From: Acetobacter estunensis
GTDB lineage: Bacteria > Pseudomonadota > Alphaproteobacteria > Acetobacterales > Acetobacteraceae
Length of the DNA stretch: 64,000 nucleotides
Reading direction: 5' to 3'
Assembly: GCF_011516945.1 (NCBI RefSeq)
Contig: NZ_WOTH01000005.1
Location: forward strand, 62,001-126,000
The notes beneath the pieces were generated by a model that did not search any database, had not been told where the DNA came from, and saw only the letters and a program-made list of their open reading frames with translations. Each line of letters opens with the position of its first letter. Within the stretch, counting starts at the first letter, position 1. Of the stretch, positions 44,913 through 52,289 are shown piece after piece. The position numbers and the translations under genes were made by a program.

Positions 44913-47360
44913 ATGCCCTCCACGTCCGACGTGCTCCGTCATCTCCCTATCGAAGGCATGACCTGTGCGTCCTGCGTTGGGCGTGTGGAAAAGGTGCTTC
45001 GACGTGTCGAAGGCGTGAAAGATGTAAGCGCTAACCTTGCCACCGAAAGTGCCGATGTGACGGCTGACGCCTCCGTCACACTTCCAACACTCGTTCGCGC
45101 CATTACAGCCGCAGGCTACGGAGTGCCTGCTCAGACGGTCGATCTCGCCATTGACGGCATGACCTGTGCCTCCTGCGTCGGCCGTGTAGAGAAAGTTCTG
45201 CGCGCTGTGCCGGGCGTGCAGGATGTTTCCGTCAATCTCGCAACAGAACAGGCCATTGTGACAGGACAGGCGGACGCCTCAGACCTGATCGCAGCAGTGG
45301 AGAGGGCCGGGTATGATGCCCGGATTACAGAGGATGGAGGGCGCGACATCGGCGAGGCAGCCGAACGTCGTCAGGCGGAAACCGTCTCTCTCACCCGCGC
45401 TTTTATCCTAGCACTGGTCTTCACTCTTCCCGTTTTTCTGATGGAAATGGGCGGTCATATGATCCCCGGTTTTCATCACCTGCTGGACCACGTCATAGGC
45501 ATGAGAACGAACTGGATCCTCCAGTTCATCCTGACTTCGATTGTTCTGTTCGTGCCCGGTTGGCGCTTCCTTCGCACCGGGTTCGTCGCTCTGGTGCATC
45601 TGGCGCCGGAAATGAATTCGCTTGTGGCCATCGGTTCGCTGGCGGCGTGGGGATATTCGGTAATCGCCACATTCGCTCCCCGGTTGCTGCCTGCTGGCGC
45701 CGTGCAGGTTTATTATGAAGCTGCCGCGGTTATCGTGACGCTCATTCTGTTGGGCCGACTTCTGGAAGCCCGCGCGAAAGGGCGCACATCGGACGCTATT
45801 CGTAAATTGGCGGGATTGCAGGCCCGTGCAGCCGTGGTTCTTCGTAATGGCACACCTGCCGAAGTGCCGGTTGGAGAGGTGAAAAGTGGCGATCTGGTTC
45901 TGATCCGGCCGGGAGAACGTATTCCCGTCGATGGAGTGGTGGCGGAGGGCGAAAGTTACGTCGATCAGTCGATGATTACAGGCGAACCCGTGCCGGTGGC
46001 GCGTCATTCTGGGGAAAGCGTTGTCGGTGGAACCGTGAACCAGAACGGCACGCTGACTGTCAGGGCGACTTCAGTGGAGGAGGCGTCCACACTCGCGCAG
46101 ATCATCCGCATGGTGCAGGACGCGCAGGCCTCGAAGCTGCCGATTCAGGGGTTGGTGGACCGTGTGACGATGTGGTTCGTGCCGATCATTCTTCTCATCG
46201 CCGCTGTGACTTTCGTGATCTGGCTTGTCTTCGGGCCGACACCGGCACTGGGCGTCGCTCTGGTGCGGGCTGTATCGGTACTGATTGTTGCCTGTCCCTG
46301 CGCGATGGGACTGGCGACGCCCACCTCCGTGATGGTCGGCACAGGGCGTGGCGCTGAACTTGGCGTGCTGTTTCGTAAAGGAGAAGCGCTTCAGACGTTG
46401 AAGGACACAAAAGTCGTGGCGTTCGACAAGACCGGAACGCTCACACAGGGGCACCCTGAACTGACGGATATGACCGTGGCGGAGGGCTTCGAGCGGGAGG
46501 AGGTTCTGCGTCTGGCCGCAGCGGTGGAAGCGCGCTCCGAACACCCGATCGCACGAGCCATTGTAGCAGCAGTCGGAAACACCGTTCTGCCAGATGTTTC
46601 GGCGTTTGAGAGTGTAACGGGCGGAGGCGTGCGGGCCTCGGTGGAAGGGCGAACGGTTGCGGTGGGCGCGGATCGCTACATGCGCGATCTCGGCTTGGAT
46701 GTAGCGGCGTTTGCCTCTCAGGCCGTGCATCTGGGAGAACTGGGTCGCACGCCCCTTTATGTGGCTCTCGATGGGCGGCTGACGGCCATTCTTGCCGTGG
46801 CCGATGCATTGCGACCTACCACGGTTGCGACCATCACCCATCTTCACGCCATGGGACTGCGGACGGCCATGGTGACAGGCGACAATGCGCACACCGCAAG
46901 CGCCATCGCCCGTCAGGCTGGAATCGATACGGTGGTGGCCGAGGTGCTGCCGGCCGGAAAGGTGGAGGCCATTCGCAAACTGAAGGTAGCGGACGGCCTG
47001 CTGGCTTATGTGGGTGACGGCATCAACGACGCACCGGCTCTGGCGGAAGCGGATGTGGGGATGGCAATGGGGTCGGGCACCGACATTGCGATGGAGGCAG
47101 CGGATGTCGTGCTGATGTCCGGCAATCCCGAGACTGTCTGCACGGCCATCGCGCTTTCCAGAGCGGTGATTGCCAATATCCGGCAAAATCTGTTCTGGGC
47201 GTTTGCCTATAACACGGCGCTCGTTCCCTTGGCCGCGGGCGTGTTCGAGCCTCTGTTCGGCTGGCAGATGTCTCCTGTTTTTTCAGCGGGGGCGATGGCG
47301 TTTTCCAGCGTGTTTGTGGTGGGCAACGCGCTTCGGTTGCGACGGTTCTCGCCACGCTGA
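44913..47360 (+). CDS. copA: Copper-exporting P1B-type ATPase
   Basis: 815 residues. Two N-terminal heavy-metal domains, each [16 protein letters not shown] (Cys18/Cys21 and Cys85/Cys88), differ little from each other. Then the actuator TGEP, the intramembrane CPC motif ([12 protein letters not shown]) that marks Cu(I) transport, phosphorylation site [14 protein letters not shown] and [14 protein letters not shown]. The Cu(I)-specific final helices carry the expected YN and MSS-type residues ([18 protein letters not shown]). Detoxifies copper at the inner membrane. A CsoR-like operator overlaps its promoter. Confidence 0.95.
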
Positions 47361-47528: not shown

Positions 47529-48671
47529 ATGAACACGACGTCTCATTGCACTTCCAGCCAATCTTCCGATGAGCAGGAAATGCGCCGTTCATTTCGTCCC
47601 GGCCGTGGCCCCTTCCAGTTCTGGGCGCAAGGTGTTCTTGTGGCGGTTGTGGCCGCGCTGGCGCTCTACACTCTGGGGCGGTTTCGGGTCTCTCTTGTGT
47701 GGGGCGGCGTGCTGGCGATCGTCTGCTGGCCTCTTCTGGGATGGCTGCAACGGAAGTGGTCACCCCGCCATGCGGATATTGTTCTGCCGGCCATTATCGT
47801 TCTGGGCATTGCCCTGATTTTTGGTGTACCGACGATGGTTATTGGCGGGATCGCGGCCAGTCAGGCGCGCGATGCGGCAGCGTGGGTGCGCGACATCCAT
47901 GAGTATGGCTTGCCGGAACCGGCGTGGCTCTCCTCCGTGCCATGGGGGCGGGCGCAGTTGGAGCATTGGTGGCAGGCCAATCTGGCCGATCCGTCAGGTG
48001 TGCAGCAGCTTCTGCATCGTCTTCATCCGGGGCAGCCTCTGCGGACGATCGATCATGTCGGGCAGGGTGTGGCCAACACGCTGGTTCTGTTCGGTTTTAC
48101 CCTGCTTGTACTGTTCTTCTTCCTCAAAGCAGGCCCGGCTGTGGTCCGGCATATGAATGTCGTGCTCTGGCGCCTGTTCGGTCCGCGGGGTGAGTTGCTC
48201 CGTTCTCAGGTCGTGGGGGCCGTGCGTGGTGCCATGGCGGGGTTGGTGCTGGTGGGTCTGGGTGAGGGCGCGCTGATTACGGTGGCCTATATCATTGCTG
48301 GAGCGCCACAGGCTCTGCTGCTTGGCGTGTTCACGGCTTTGATGTCCATGATTCCGATGCTCGGCGGCTTGGCTGTGGCGCTGGCTGTGGTGGTTATCCT
48401 TGTCAAAGGAACAGTGGGAGCCGCCGTTGGAGTGGGTGTATTTGGCATGATCGTGCTGTTTCTTGCCGATCATTTTATTCGCCCTGTCCTGATCGGCGGA
48501 TCGATCAGGTTGCCCTTCGTGTGGGTGCTGCTTGGGATTTTGGGCGGTCTTGAGGGCTGGGGGCTTTTGGGTCTGTTTATCGGGCCAGTGTTGATGGCGT
48601 TGGCGCATCTGATGTGGCGGTTCGGCTCTATGAGCGCGGCGGGGGCGCATGCGTTGCCCGTTGAAAAGTGA
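47529..48671 (+). CDS. AI-2E family (PerM-like) membrane protein
   Basis: 380 residues from ATG 47529 (the frame is open 18 codons further). Seven or eight membrane segments; the family pattern DUF20 is seen in RIPGALPQALLLGVFTALMS-like text here as AGAPQALLLGVFTALMSMIP, with the conserved PxxG near MIPMLGGLAVALAVVVILVK and FVWVLLGILGGLEGWGLLGL, FIGPVLMALA. Members export small molecules or sodium; AI-2 export is proven only for TqsA. Follows copA by 168 bases on the same strand. Confidence 0.88.
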   Translation: MNTTSHCTSSQSSDEQEMRRSFRPGRGPFQFWAQGVLVAVVAALALYTLGRFRVSLVWGGVLAIVCWPLLGWLQRKWSPRHADIVLPAIIVLGIALIFGVPTMVIGGIAASQARDAAAWVRDIHEYGLPEPAWLSSVPWGRAQLEHWWQANLADPSGVQQLLHRLHPGQPLRTIDHVGQGVANTLVLFGFTLLVLFFFLKAGPAVVRHMNVVLWRLFGPRGELLRSQVVGAVRGAMAGLVLVGLGEGALITVAYIIAGAPQALLLGVFTALMSMIPMLGGLAVALAVVVILVKGTVGAAVGVGVFGMIVLFLADHFIRPVLIGGSIRLPFVWVLLGILGGLEGWGLLGLFIGPVLMALAHLMWRFGSMSAAGAHALPVEK

Positions 48672-48788
48672 GGCGATGATTTCCCCGAAATGGCTGTCTG
48701 GAAGGAAAGTGAGGGAACGCAAAACTTTCGCTTATCGTTTCCCGTTCAATATGCCATGCGTGATCTGTCCAGAAGGAAAGAGACATCC

Positions 48789-49037
48789 ATGAACGACGAA
48801 GAAGAAGTCATTGTCGGCTATCTGATCCAGCGCGAGTCCGAAGACGGTGAACTCGACTTCTGGAACCCGGAGACAAAGTGGTCGGACGATCCAAACGACG
48901 CCAAGCTCTATGAAAGCGAGGACGAAGCGGATGCGGACGCCACGGCGCTTCAGGCACAGGGCGGCGGTGAGATCAGCGTGGCCGTCGTGATTGAAGATGA
49001 CGGTGAAGACGAGGATGAAGAAGACGAAGAAGTCTGA
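48789..49037 (+). CDS. Small acidic protein, unknown
   Basis: 82 residues from ATG 48789, preceded by AGGAAAGAGA. Very acidic: EEEVIVGYLIQRESEDGELD near the start and a C-terminal run of Asp and Glu (DDGEDEDEEDEEV). The first part (VGYLIQRESEDGELDFWNPE) contains a strand and an aromatic-rich segment, not simple low complexity. No family recognised. A strong terminator follows. Confidence 0.6.
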   Translation: MNDEEEVIVGYLIQRESEDGELDFWNPETKWSDDPNDAKLYESEDEADADATALQAQGGGEISVAVVIEDDGEDEDEEDEEV

Positions 49038-49358
49038 ATCTTTCCGCGTTACGAGTTTCCCAGCCCACGTTCTGCTTTCTGGCGGGGCGTGGGTTTTTTG
49101 TTTGTGGAAGAAAACTCACGCTGGTCGGACAGAACGGTAACTGCGAAGCACTATGTCGCATGGTAGACGGTGTGTGACCGAATACTGCGGTTATCTTGGA
49201 ACTCCGTCATTCCGATGGCGAAAATCTGTCCAAATGTTGATTTTGTTACATTTCGATATTTTTTGACTTGCTTTGAAAATTTTGTAAACGAATTATTGAC
49301 AATTGTTGCTGTCTGCGTTTTTTACGTTTCGTCCATTTCATGTGACGGAGATAGAAAA
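49038..49358. other. Promoter region and terminator before the leader-peptide gene
   Basis: About 320 bases without a gene. The first part holds the terminator of the acidic protein gene. From about 49215 the DNA is strongly AT-rich and contains TTGACT (49263) and a perfect -35 TTGACA (49296-49301) with only a poor -10 17 bases on. Confidence 0.6.
49064..49099 (+). terminator. Intrinsic terminator after the acidic protein gene
   Basis: CCCACG (49064-49069) pairs with CGTGGG (49088-49093), followed by six T. Confidence 0.85.
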
Positions 49359-49721
49359 ATGCGTGAATTAAACACAGCTGAAATCAACGAAGTTTCAGGT
49401 GGCTGCAGCTTTGGTGGCGGCTGGGTTGCGCCCGCTTGGGGCGGCTGCGGTGGCGGCGCGTCTTGGTCTTGGGGTGGATGTGGCAGCTGGGCCCCGGCTT
49501 GGGGCGGTGGTTCATGTGATGGCTGGGGGCCGGCTCCGTCATGGCACACAGGCGGTTCCTGCGGTGGCAACACCACGCCGGTTGCTCCGACCCCGGGCAC
49601 GGGTGGTTCCTGCCAGAATGAGTCGTTCCAGCAGATCCTCAACGGGATCATCCATGGCTCGAACTACACGGGTGTGCCTGCGTGCAGCACAACGACGTCC
49701 AGCTGCACGACGACGGCCTGA
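49359..49721 (+). CDS. Double-glycine-leader peptide precursor, Gly/Trp/Cys-rich
   Basis: 120 residues from ATG 49359, preceded by GGAG at eight bases. Residues 1-15 are MRELNTAEINEVSGG, a leader of the class II bacteriocin / colicin V type that a C39-peptidase ABC transporter cuts after Gly-Gly. The predicted mature part of 105 residues holds about 26 Gly, 8 Trp and 8 Cys, with a repeated APAWGG block (VAPAWGGCGGG and SWAPAWGGGSC), then a Pro/Thr spacer and a more ordinary tail (ESFQQILNGIIHGSNYTG). No exporter, immunity or modifying gene is nearby. Could be a bacteriocin, a surface or matrix peptide, or a modified peptide precursor. A larger open frame upstream lacks a start signal. Confidence 0.75.
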   Translation: MRELNTAEINEVSGGCSFGGGWVAPAWGGCGGGASWSWGGCGSWAPAWGGGSCDGWGPAPSWHTGGSCGGNTTPVAPTPGTGGSCQNESFQQILNGIIHGSNYTGVPACSTTTSSCTTTA

Positions 49722-49748
49722 TTTCTGAATTTTAGAAATCTGTAGAAG

Positions 49749-49776
49749 CCGCCCGGTTTATGCCGGGCGGTTTTTT
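49749..49776 (+). terminator. Strong intrinsic terminator after the leader-peptide gene
   Basis: CCGCCCGG (49749-49756) pairs perfectly with CCGGGCGG (49763-49770), followed by six T. Confidence 0.95.
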
Positions 49777-49790
49777 GTGACGTATTAAGA

Positions 49791-50069
49791 TCAGGCGTAG
49801 GAATCGACGGAGTTCGCTGCGTCTGAGTCCGAGTCCGAAGAACTGGCGGTGCGCGGTGTGCCCTCGGTGGTCGTGGAGACCACATTGCCCTGTGCGTCCG
49901 TCACAGTGATGGTGAGGGTGCCATCGCTGTTCAGGGTCTGGGTCGTGGTGTCGGAAGAAGAGGAAGACGCCGAAGACGAGTCAGACGAAACCGAGGAAGA
50001 TCCCGAAGACGTGTCACCGAACAGACTCGATACGGCGCTCGTGCCGAGGGAGGAAATGGAAGACGACAT
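49791..50069 (-). CDS. Ser-rich small protein
   Basis: 92 residues from ATG 50069, which has a near-perfect AAGGAG eight bases upstream, so the gene is real despite its composition. Over a third of residues are Ser (SSLFGDTSSGSSSVSSDSSS), with a Thr-rich centre (DGTLTITVTDAQGNVVSTTT) that reads like a bacterial repeat strand. No signal peptide. Convergent with the double-glycine-leader gene, 70 bases apart. Unknown; possible relation to the peptide gene is by position only. Confidence 0.65.
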   Translation of the reverse strand: MSSSISSLGTSAVSSLFGDTSSGSSSVSSDSSSASSSSSDTTTQTLNSDGTLTITVTDAQGNVVSTTTEGTPRTASSSDSDSDAANSVDSYA

Positions 50070-50208
50070 GACGTTACTCCTTGCGTAAGAGGTACGTCGA
50101 ATTGTTCGCTCTCATTTCCTAACTGATAGTGAAAATGCACGTAACAGAAAGAAATGCTCCGTAACAGGCGCTTTTCTCCTTTGGCTCTGCTCTTCCACGC
50201 CGTGATGA

Positions 50209-51123
50209 TTAGCAGCCCAGTGCAGGCAACACCGTTTCCACAATGTTGCGGTCCAACGCTTCGTATTCATGGTAGCGCAACGTGCGGTAAAGTTCTTCCC
50301 GCGTCTGCATCCGCGGCACCATGGTCTGCGTGCTGCCGTCGCGTTTGAGTGTGGCGTAAAGATCCGCCTGTGCCCTGTTGGCGACGCGCAGTGAACTGAC
50401 GGGCCAGATGATCATCCGATATCCCATATTCTCAAACTCTTCGGCCGTGAAAAAGGGGGTGCGCCCAAACTCCGTCATATTGGCCAGCAGGCGTACGCCG
50501 GGCATCCTGCGTGCGAATTCGCGGAACATATCCGCAGTGGTCAGTGCTTCGGGAAAGATTGCATCCGCTCCGGCTGCTACATACCGTTTTGCCCGTGCCA
50601 CGGCTCCGTCCATGCCTTCGCTGGCCACGGCGTCCGTACGGGCAACGATCACGATGTCACGGGCGGCGCGGCGGGCGGCATCGACCTTCATGACCATCTC
50701 GTCCAAGGACGCGAGTTTCTTGTCATTGAGATGCCCGCATTTCTTGGGCAGCAACTGGTCTTCCAGATGTACAGCCCCCGCGCCCGCTTCCTCAAACGCG
50801 CGCACCATGTTCATGACATTGAGCGTTTCGCCATATCCTGTGTCACCATCGACCAGAATGGGAAGACCGGAAGCGCGGACGATCTGGCGGATAAAAAACG
50901 TCACTTCATTGATGGTGATGATCCCCAGATCCGGCAGGCCCATGCTCGCGGTCATGGCGGCACCGGAGAGATACAGCGCTTCAAAACCCGCATCTTTCGC
51001 CTGAAGCGCGGCCTGCCCGTTATGCGCGCCCGGAAGCTGAAGAATGCCGGATGCATCGAGAAGTTTGCGGAAGCGCACTCCTGCGGATTCACTCGGGTTT
51101 TCGGAACCGACCAGATAGGTCAT
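50209..51123 (-). CDS. prpB: 2-Methylisocitrate lyase
   Basis: 304 residues from ATG 51123, overlapping the prpC stop (ATGA). Splits 2-methylisocitrate into pyruvate and succinate. The isocitrate lyase-family signature [11 protein letters not shown] with the catalytic Cys is intact, with [30 protein letters not shown] and [14 protein letters not shown]. Last gene of the prp operon for propionyl-CoA breakdown. Confidence 0.95.
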
Positions 51124-52289
51124 GCTGCCTTCTCCATATGTCCGCGTTTGTTGATGTGAATGAATGGACGGTCTTCCGGCCCGATATACTCTGCGGAAGG
51201 ACGGATGATCTTGCCGTTTTCGCGTTGTTCGAGGACATGGGCGCTCCAGCCCGCTGAACGCGCGATGACGAAGATCGGTGTGAACATGGCGGTCGGGATG
51301 CGCATCATGCTGTAGGAAACCGCGCTGAACCAATCGAGATTGGGAAACATTTTTTTGGTTTCGCGCATGACGGTCTCGATCCGCTCCGCCACGTTGTAAA
51401 GGCGCATCGCGCCACTGCGTTTTGAAAGTTCGAAGGCTGTGCGTTTGATGATCTCGTTGCGCGGATCGGCAACCGTATAAACCGGATGGCCGAAACCGAT
51501 GATGACCTCACGGTTGTCGATGCGACGGCGGATATCGGCTTCCGCTTCATCCGGTGTGAGGTAACGCTGCTGAATTTCCAGTGCGACCTCGTTGGCACCC
51601 CCATGTTTCGGTCCACGGAGAGCGCCGATACCGCCGCATAATGCGGAATAGATGTCCGAACCGGTGCCAGCGATCACCCGGCCTGCGAAGGTGGAGGCAT
51701 TGAATTCATGCTCGGCATAGAGAATGAGCGAGACATGCATGGCCTTCACCCATTCCGCAGGCGGTGCCTGACCATGCAGGAGATGGAGGAAATGACCGCC
51801 GATGCTGTCGTCGTCAGTTTCGACTTCGATGCGGCGACCATTGGTCGCGAAATGATACCAGTAGAGCAGGATCGATCCGAGCGAGGCGAGGCAACGATCC
51901 GCGATCTCACGCGCACCGACAGGGTTCTGGTCGCGGCGTTCGGGCAGGACGCATCCCAAAACAGACAGGCCGGTGCGCATCACGTCCATGGGATGCGCGG
52001 CAGCCGGGATTTGTTCCAGCACGCGCTTTACCTGCTCGGGCAGACCGCGCATGGAGCGAAGGTGTTCCTTGTAGACGGCCAGTTCCGCGACGTCGGGCAG
52101 ATGACCGTGAATCAGGAGATGCGCGACTTCCTCATACTCGCAGTGTTCCGCAAGATCTTTGATGTCATAGCCGCGGTAATGCAGGTCATTGCCGCCGTGG
52201 CCGACTGTGCAGAGCGACGTGGTTCCGGCCGCAACACCGGAAAGCGCCACGGATTTTTTTGGACGATTTTCGTGAGAGGTCTGCGTCAT
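51120..52289 (-). CDS. prpC: 2-Methylcitrate synthase
   Basis: 389 residues with GAGGAG before the ATG. Condenses propionyl-CoA with oxaloacetate. Citrate synthase-fold motifs: [52 protein letters not shown] (catalytic His). The [11 protein letters not shown] string and length are PrpC-like rather than GltA-like. Middle gene of the operon, 26 bases after prpD. Confidence 0.93.

Follow-up and report, generated by a model that had tools for sequence, protein, structure and literature searches.

In Gram-negative bacteria, peptides with a double-glycine leader are mostly classed as bacteriocins. The window, the whole stretch of 64,000 nucleotides of Acetobacter DNA that was analyzed here, carries a gene for such a peptide in an orphan place, with a mature part unusually rich in Gly, Trp and Cys. 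The locus raises two questions: how would the peptide leave the cell, and what would it do outside? The answer preferred here is a surface or matrix peptide resembling the EbfG peptides of Synechococcus elongatus rather than a microcin, and the whole of this explanation is given a probability of about 0.5.

The precursor gene and its predicted product

The gene and the parts of its product are located as follows.

49359..49721 (+), precursor peptide gene, 120 codons plus stop (open reading frame, orthologues, pN/pS)
49359..49403 (+), double-glycine leader of 15 residues, MRELNTAEINEVSGG (translation; rank 1 of 4,728 with the leader matrix)
49404..49406 (+), Cys at +1, the expected N-terminus after the predicted cut behind GG (Cys in 8 of 8 window-family genes)
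49404..49619 (+), variable Gly/Trp/Cys/Pro region (orthologue alignment)
49428..49445 (+), first APAWGG, from residue 24 (motif search)
49491..49508 (+), second APAWGG, from residue 45 (motif search)
49620..49661 (+), C-terminal motif ESFQQILNGIIHGS, where orthologues align SFNDVLNSIIHNS or similar (orthologue alignment)

The coordinates, frame and residue counts of the original prediction are confirmed, as is its internal APAWGG repeat: the leader is followed by 105 residues, of which 26 are Gly, 8 Trp, 8 Cys, 13 Ser, 12 Thr and 8 Pro. Judged by its sequence, the peptide conforms to the double-glycine leader pattern of C39-exported peptides, and the precursor would be cleaved behind GG. Pfam and PHROGs searches with the peptide give no family match. 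In NCBIfam, TIGR03949 (class IIb bacteriocin, lactobin A/cerein 7B) aligns with the leader region only, at 16.7 bits against a cut-off of 21.5, and a six-frame search of the genome gives 19.1 bits, likewise under the cut-off. The structure model, which shows a helix at 84-99, has a mean pLDDT of 31.1, a very low confidence that makes it uninformative.

An origin as plasmid or phage cargo was considered and rejected, as tblastn gives no match in plasmid and phage collections; viral contigs searched with profile A1 contain no confirmed relative of the peptide. Among the literature matches listed, titles and the beginnings of abstracts hold nothing on double-glycine peptides of Acetobacter. For Bombella, another acetic acid genus, the accessible part of one study describes a BAGEL4 analysis of 22 genomes in which no bacteriocins were found (PMC9147383).

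Orthologues and purifying selection

Window-family genes are present in 7 of 49 Acetobacter genomes: the window's own (G000), G001, G002, G007, G034, G036 and G040. In all seven, representing the own and six further species, one lies at the same place, convergent with a Ser-rich gene and near a gene taken from its sequence to be prpB. A. estunensis AV380 and G007 have the same peptide. In the genus search, the window protein matched 8 of 49 genomes and profile A1 matched 11 of 49. The match in G026 is false, as it has three stops and apparently runs across a ligase gene; the G002 match and a second G007 match of the window-protein search are peptides of family A (discussed later), and the window-family genes of G002 came from A1. 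In G010, G020, G024 and G042, all of which have C39, A1 matches mainly by the leader, and these are not counted as orthologues. L022, whose match contains internal stops, was left out.

Compared with the A. estunensis orthologue, the window gene has 17 synonymous and 7 non-synonymous differences (pS 0.209, pN 0.028) and a single in-frame length difference of 30 nt in the repeat region; residues 38-47 of the window peptide have no counterpart there. Given these values and the one conserved place in seven genomes, this is a real gene under purifying selection. Chance or artefact is rejected by the leader alignment, by pN/pS and by the matrix score of the gene.

Identity to the window protein is 45-51% for the four other orthologues. 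The original prediction had required, among other things, a leader conserved in homologues, and the leader is indeed kept across a six-row alignment that excludes both G002 genes. Leader residues R2, E3, L4, N5, E8, E11, V12, S13, G14 and G15 are invariant in it, and so are Cys16, W48-G50 and, near the C-terminus, SFxxxLNxII. Cys follows GG in all eight window-family genes. However, the total number of Cys ranges from 4 to 8 across the 6 distinct genes counted, which argues against one fixed disulfide fold, and the repeat number varies too. The G002 copy at the conserved place (L129:4541) has ATT where the others have ATG. A second G002 copy elsewhere (L130:4979-5398) contains a tandem GNCGFAPPPPP-like repeat, and its mature part is 26% Pro.

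Flanking signals and neighboring genes

Four features flank the precursor gene.

49296..49325 (+), possible promoter, TTGACA plus a stretch behind it, resembling the upstream regions of orthologues (not confirmed by the consensus scan)
49345..49350 (+), ribosome-binding-like ACGGAG, ending 8 nt before ATG (by eye)
49746..49773 (+), terminator-like inverted repeat, then T's (inverted-repeat search)
49791..50069 (-), convergent Ser-rich gene, 92 aa (present in 29 of 49 Acetobacter genomes)

The ACGGAG sequence is consistent with the Shine-Dalgarno that had been ascribed to the gene. The AT-rich promoter region claimed along with it stands as to composition, with a GC content of 0.39 at 49140-49319 and 0.35 at 49230-49409, but a consensus scan of 49040-50110 gives no sigma-70 promoter. 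Similarly, the terminator does consist of an inverted repeat and T's, but "perfect" was too strong a word for it: the 11-nt arms (49746-49756 and 49763-49773) are 91% complementary, and a terminator scan of 49040-50110 does not list the repeat, perhaps because the scan counts T's into the stem. An Rfam search of 48600-50400 yields nothing. Shortly before the ribosome-binding site, 6 of 8 window-family genes have the palindrome GAGCGCTC (L014 1779, L015 1764, L016 1770, L017 1501, L129 4541 and L087 1288); as it is absent upstream of the window and A. estunensis genes, it is no general operator.

Several nearby genes have been named from their sequence and are taken here to be prpB, prpC and prpD, and the gene at 44913-47360 presumably encodes a copper-type P-type ATPase. 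The ATPase gene is also present at the A. estunensis locus and is absent from the 4 other orthologue loci compared. A small acidic protein is encoded at 48690-49037 (+), with a DUF2849 match below threshold and 93 residues identical in A. estunensis; among the orthologue loci compared (A. estunensis and 4 others), this ORF recurs only in A. estunensis.

The Ser-rich protein of 92 residues has no Pfam or NCBIfam match over cut-off. When the leader pattern is applied to about 1.5 kb on each side of the gene, 22 of the 29 Ser-rich loci have no leader gene. The Ser-rich gene is thus a conserved neighbor rather than a dedicated partner, and a role for it as partner or immunity gene is not favored. 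Small ORFs at 47901-51500, those in the peptide's own frames set aside, all lack a strongly hydrophobic stretch, leaving no membrane-type immunity candidate. By size and nearness alone, a criterion given in the available part of a study of class II microcins (PMC9746304), both the acidic ORF and the Ser-rich ORF would pass.

The C39 exporter and its operon

The original prediction had noted that the window contains no C39 transporter and that export would fall to a distant machine. A profile search finds a single C39 match in the genome, which is assembled in 120 contigs; it lies at C12:1744-2130, while the window is on contig C5. The C39 domain belongs to a 757-residue ABC protein, preceded by a 437-residue HlyD protein. 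Pfam cut-offs are reached for Peptidase_C39, ABC_membrane, ABC_tran and HlyD_3, and no NCBIfam exporter model is at cut-off, the best being TIGR03796 with 499 vs 853 bits. The catalytic residues C27, H100 and D116 are spaced by 73 and 16, a spacing identical to that of Cys32, His105 and Asp121 of CvaB, as given in the part consulted of PMC9746304. In relatives, the first gene of the exporter operon encodes a leader peptide; at the head of the operon on C12, the 3' part of such a gene remains, the rest being cut off by the contig end.

Across the genus, 20 of 49 genomes have C39, with 22 loci between them. The stretch fetched for each locus contains a leader-peptide gene in 21 of the 22 cases, counting the own genome with its 3' part; the exception is G024, where the leader pattern has no match in the 6.3 kb before the HlyD gene and the leader gene is elsewhere in the genome. 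A C39 tree of 21 loci (G042b, open at a contig end, was excluded) splits 13 vs 8 with full support. The 13 are the same genomes as the 13 of 49 that hold family-A peptides, and the 13 closest matches to the Hint-domain protein P0002, at 59-100% identity, come from them too (the match in the own genome is partial). One genome of the second C39 type has two such exporters (G026:C1).

The family-A peptides of the exporter operons have the same 15-residue leader type as the window peptide and a different mature part, which is 113-129 residues long with a conserved GYLAGEYNV...SMTVAQA core; the family-A profile meets window-family genes only over positions 1-52. Cys is found at +1 in 10 of the 12 complete operonic genes and Phe in the other two (G019 and G032). 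A PDB profile search with family A gives a best E of 0.17.

In 12 of 12 assembled loci of this type (for example, L029:7945-9681), the Hint-domain gene and the exporter operon are divergently oriented, and in the own genome the Hint gene is found at the start of contig C10. Pfam Hint_2 was tested on two of the proteins, those of G002 and G032. All 12 proteins of the assembled loci retain the first Cys of the Hint domain and TSEH, with ICFL in place of GCFL in G019. Hint proteins of lower identity (37-39%) are found near 6 of 9 other C39 loci, and P0002 has matches at 1e-60 in 36 of 49 genomes; the broad Hint kind is thus common in the genus, and only the closest orthologue is specific. Beyond the Hint gene, 10 of 12 loci encode a regulator-like protein and a DUF3576 protein. 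The former matches BTAD (21.8 vs 22.1 bits) and Trans_reg_C (20.1 vs 26.2), both under the Pfam cut-offs. In a cellulose-overproducing strain, a Hint-domain gene is among several mutated genes, a candidate association as far as the excerpted article goes (PMC11999647).

Does this exporter carry the window peptide?

A leader matrix was made from 11 exporter-operon leaders of other species. Among the 4,728 candidate starts of the window, it places the window leader first, at 31.1 bits, with the next at 10.8. In about 60 kb of loci of the own genome (4,319 starts), the peptide on contig C11 scores 30.2 and the next 1.3; these stretches were chosen from earlier matches, and so the top rank of the C11 peptide is no independent find. 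The search of the genome for other MREL leaders, which the original prediction had proposed, thus gives three leader-peptide genes in all: that of the window, an intact one on C11, and the 3' remnant at the start of C12.

Distant export is likely, given one C39 exporter with an HlyD protein, its CvaB-like spacing, the leader peptide of its operon, and the first rank of the window leader in the matrix scan. On this footing, the single C39 exporter probably handles the window peptide, and it may serve all three leader peptides of the genome.

The distribution of the genes points the same way. All 7 window-family genomes are within the 13 that have family A and this exporter type (Fisher 2.0e-5), and all 13 are within the 20 C39 genomes (Fisher 3.0e-7); both tests ignore relatedness, and the species that share these genes are relatives of one another. 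Two changes are required on the C39 tree to explain the window family, which may nevertheless have had a single origin. The window family is missing from six of the 13 genomes that have this exporter type. MREL leaders are also found in genomes with the other C39 type (G010, G024 and G042), and other genera of the family give mainly leader-only matches, with A1 matching 16 of 397 genomes. The leader is therefore no pointer to this exporter type in particular. In Acetobacter, different mature parts stand behind MREL, MRDL or MRTL double-glycine-type leaders (L109, L081, L107 and L145), and peptides of this kind are found in other genera as well (L079, L080, L082, L084, L086, L088 and L089).

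A proposed surface or matrix peptide and its alternatives

In the preferred reading, the single C39-peptidase ABC exporter would recognize the leader and cut behind GG; together with the HlyD protein and presumably a TolC-type outer-membrane channel, it would then move the peptide out. The product would be a mature peptide of about 105 residues with an N-terminal Cys, one of at least three such peptides, encoded at the head of the exporter operon, on contig C11, and near the genes named prpB, prpC and prpD. Outside the cell, its most likely role would be that of a low-complexity peptide of the surface or matrix, with disulfides and Gly/Trp/Pro repeats to hold it, rather than that of a dedicated killer. 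The surface-acting peptide that the original prediction had offered as one option is thus a possible, and here the preferred, reading.

The closest precedent is found in S. elongatus PCC 7942, where biofilm is enabled by four double-glycine peptides, EbfG1-4, which are secreted efficiently only with the C39 protein PteB. Of these, EbfG1-3 are amyloid-forming, and EbfG4 occurs both on cells and in the matrix (PMC4997328, PMC9981879, in the parts at hand). The likeness lies in small double-glycine peptides that in S. elongatus depend on a C39-type transporter, several sharing one (same sources). However, it was drawn without sequence comparison, and EbfG1-4 are co-transcribed, with EbfG1-3 amyloid in the passages available, whereas the Acetobacter peptides are dispersed and mostly begin with Cys. 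Besides this precedent, four observations favor a matrix role over a toxin: there is no small membrane protein beside the gene, its place is fixed in seven species, the numbers of Cys and repeats vary while both ends are kept, and the exporter has a Hint-domain neighbor. The Acetobacter set, with dispersed peptides, one exporter, a Hint neighbor and no clear immunity gene, would be a simple system, in vinegar bacteria, for the question of surface building.

The main competitor, less probable but still a serious possibility, is that the distant C39 machine exports a class II microcin or bacteriocin that kills relatives, its immunity being unlinked, unusual or absent. The likeness to class II microcins extends to the double-glycine leader, to a PCAT with the Cys/His/Asp spacing of CvaB and to the membrane-fusion partner; such microcins leave the cell by the same route, and identifying their immunity genes is difficult, to go by the portion available of PMC9746304. 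The weak TIGR03949 match, the variable core behind a conserved leader, and the several such peptides per genome would also fit a microcin. Unlike class II microcins, however, the Acetobacter peptide is encoded apart from its putative exporter and has no neighboring immunity candidate of membrane type; its core, with the C-terminal SFxxxLNxII, has no match in the families searched. The Ser-rich neighbor occurs without the peptide too, the NCBIfam match is confined to the leader region and lies under cut-off, and the chromosomal place is identical in seven species. The bacteriocin function that the leader class had suggested is thus unsupported, or at best possible. Double-glycine peptides with a C39 peptidase are also found in Neisseria gonorrhoeae, where the Nap peptides do not kill competitors, according to the accessible text of PMC11798529. 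The same text describes the Nap peptides as short and cationic, encoded on a mobile island with a FapF-like channel, and linked to autolysis, all of which sets them apart from the window peptide.

A signaling role, in which the peptide would leave through the C39 machine and be sensed by like cells as has been proposed for the unknown substrate of HetC, is unlikely. PCATs with non-toxic roles do exist, HetC being an example in the part consulted of PMC10986499, and 10 of 12 assembled exporter loci have a regulator-like gene nearby. Against this, 105 low-complexity, repeat-bearing residues are long for a signal, and the domain matches of the regulator are below the Pfam cut-offs.

It is more doubtful again that the peptide is modified like microcin B17, with azoles formed from the Cys, Ser and Thr of its Gly-rich chain, or that it is a Cys-rich metal binder. 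The composition, rich in Gly, Ser, Thr and Cys, would suit either, and the putative copper-type ATPase gene, shared with A. estunensis, would suit the latter; however, that gene is missing from the four other orthologue loci compared. As to azoles, YcaO, the enzyme that their formation requires, is over cut-off in 0 of 49 genomes and below threshold in 4 of 49, the window's genome not among them, and YcaO-type modification finds no support; the original prediction had left a modified peptide as one option.

Within the preferred reading of a surface or matrix peptide, a link to the Hint neighbor can be imagined. The first Cys of a Hint domain forms a thioester. The N-terminal Cys of the exported peptide might resolve this thioester and so become covalently joined to the N-terminal part of the Hint protein in a surface or pellicle matrix. 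This secreted ligation is a long shot. The N-terminal Cys, predicted for 8 of 8 window-family and 10 of 12 operonic family-A peptides, and the Hint Cys with TSEH in 12 of 12 speak for it, and the two genomes with Phe at +1, G019 and G032, which keep the Hint orthologue, speak against it. If true, thioester chemistry would thereby have a new extracellular use.

Least probable of all is a decaying or unexpressed remnant of a formerly exported peptide, to which the orphan place and the ATT of the G002 copy might point, but which is contradicted by the low pN relative to pS and by an upstream region and terminator that are similar in A. estunensis.

The exporter tail

The C39 gene of the own genome encodes a Pro/Ala/Gln-rich C-terminal tail (L007:3790-3969) that ends in GTYGMTYGFGGGWPNTSQ or similar (SFGYGGGWP). 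The tail is also present in other family-A C39 genes, shorter related tails occur in G018, G019, G020 and G032, and the other C39 type is without it; G009 is not comparable, as its frame differs at the end. This C-terminal tail of the exporter resembles the Gly/aromatic substrates.
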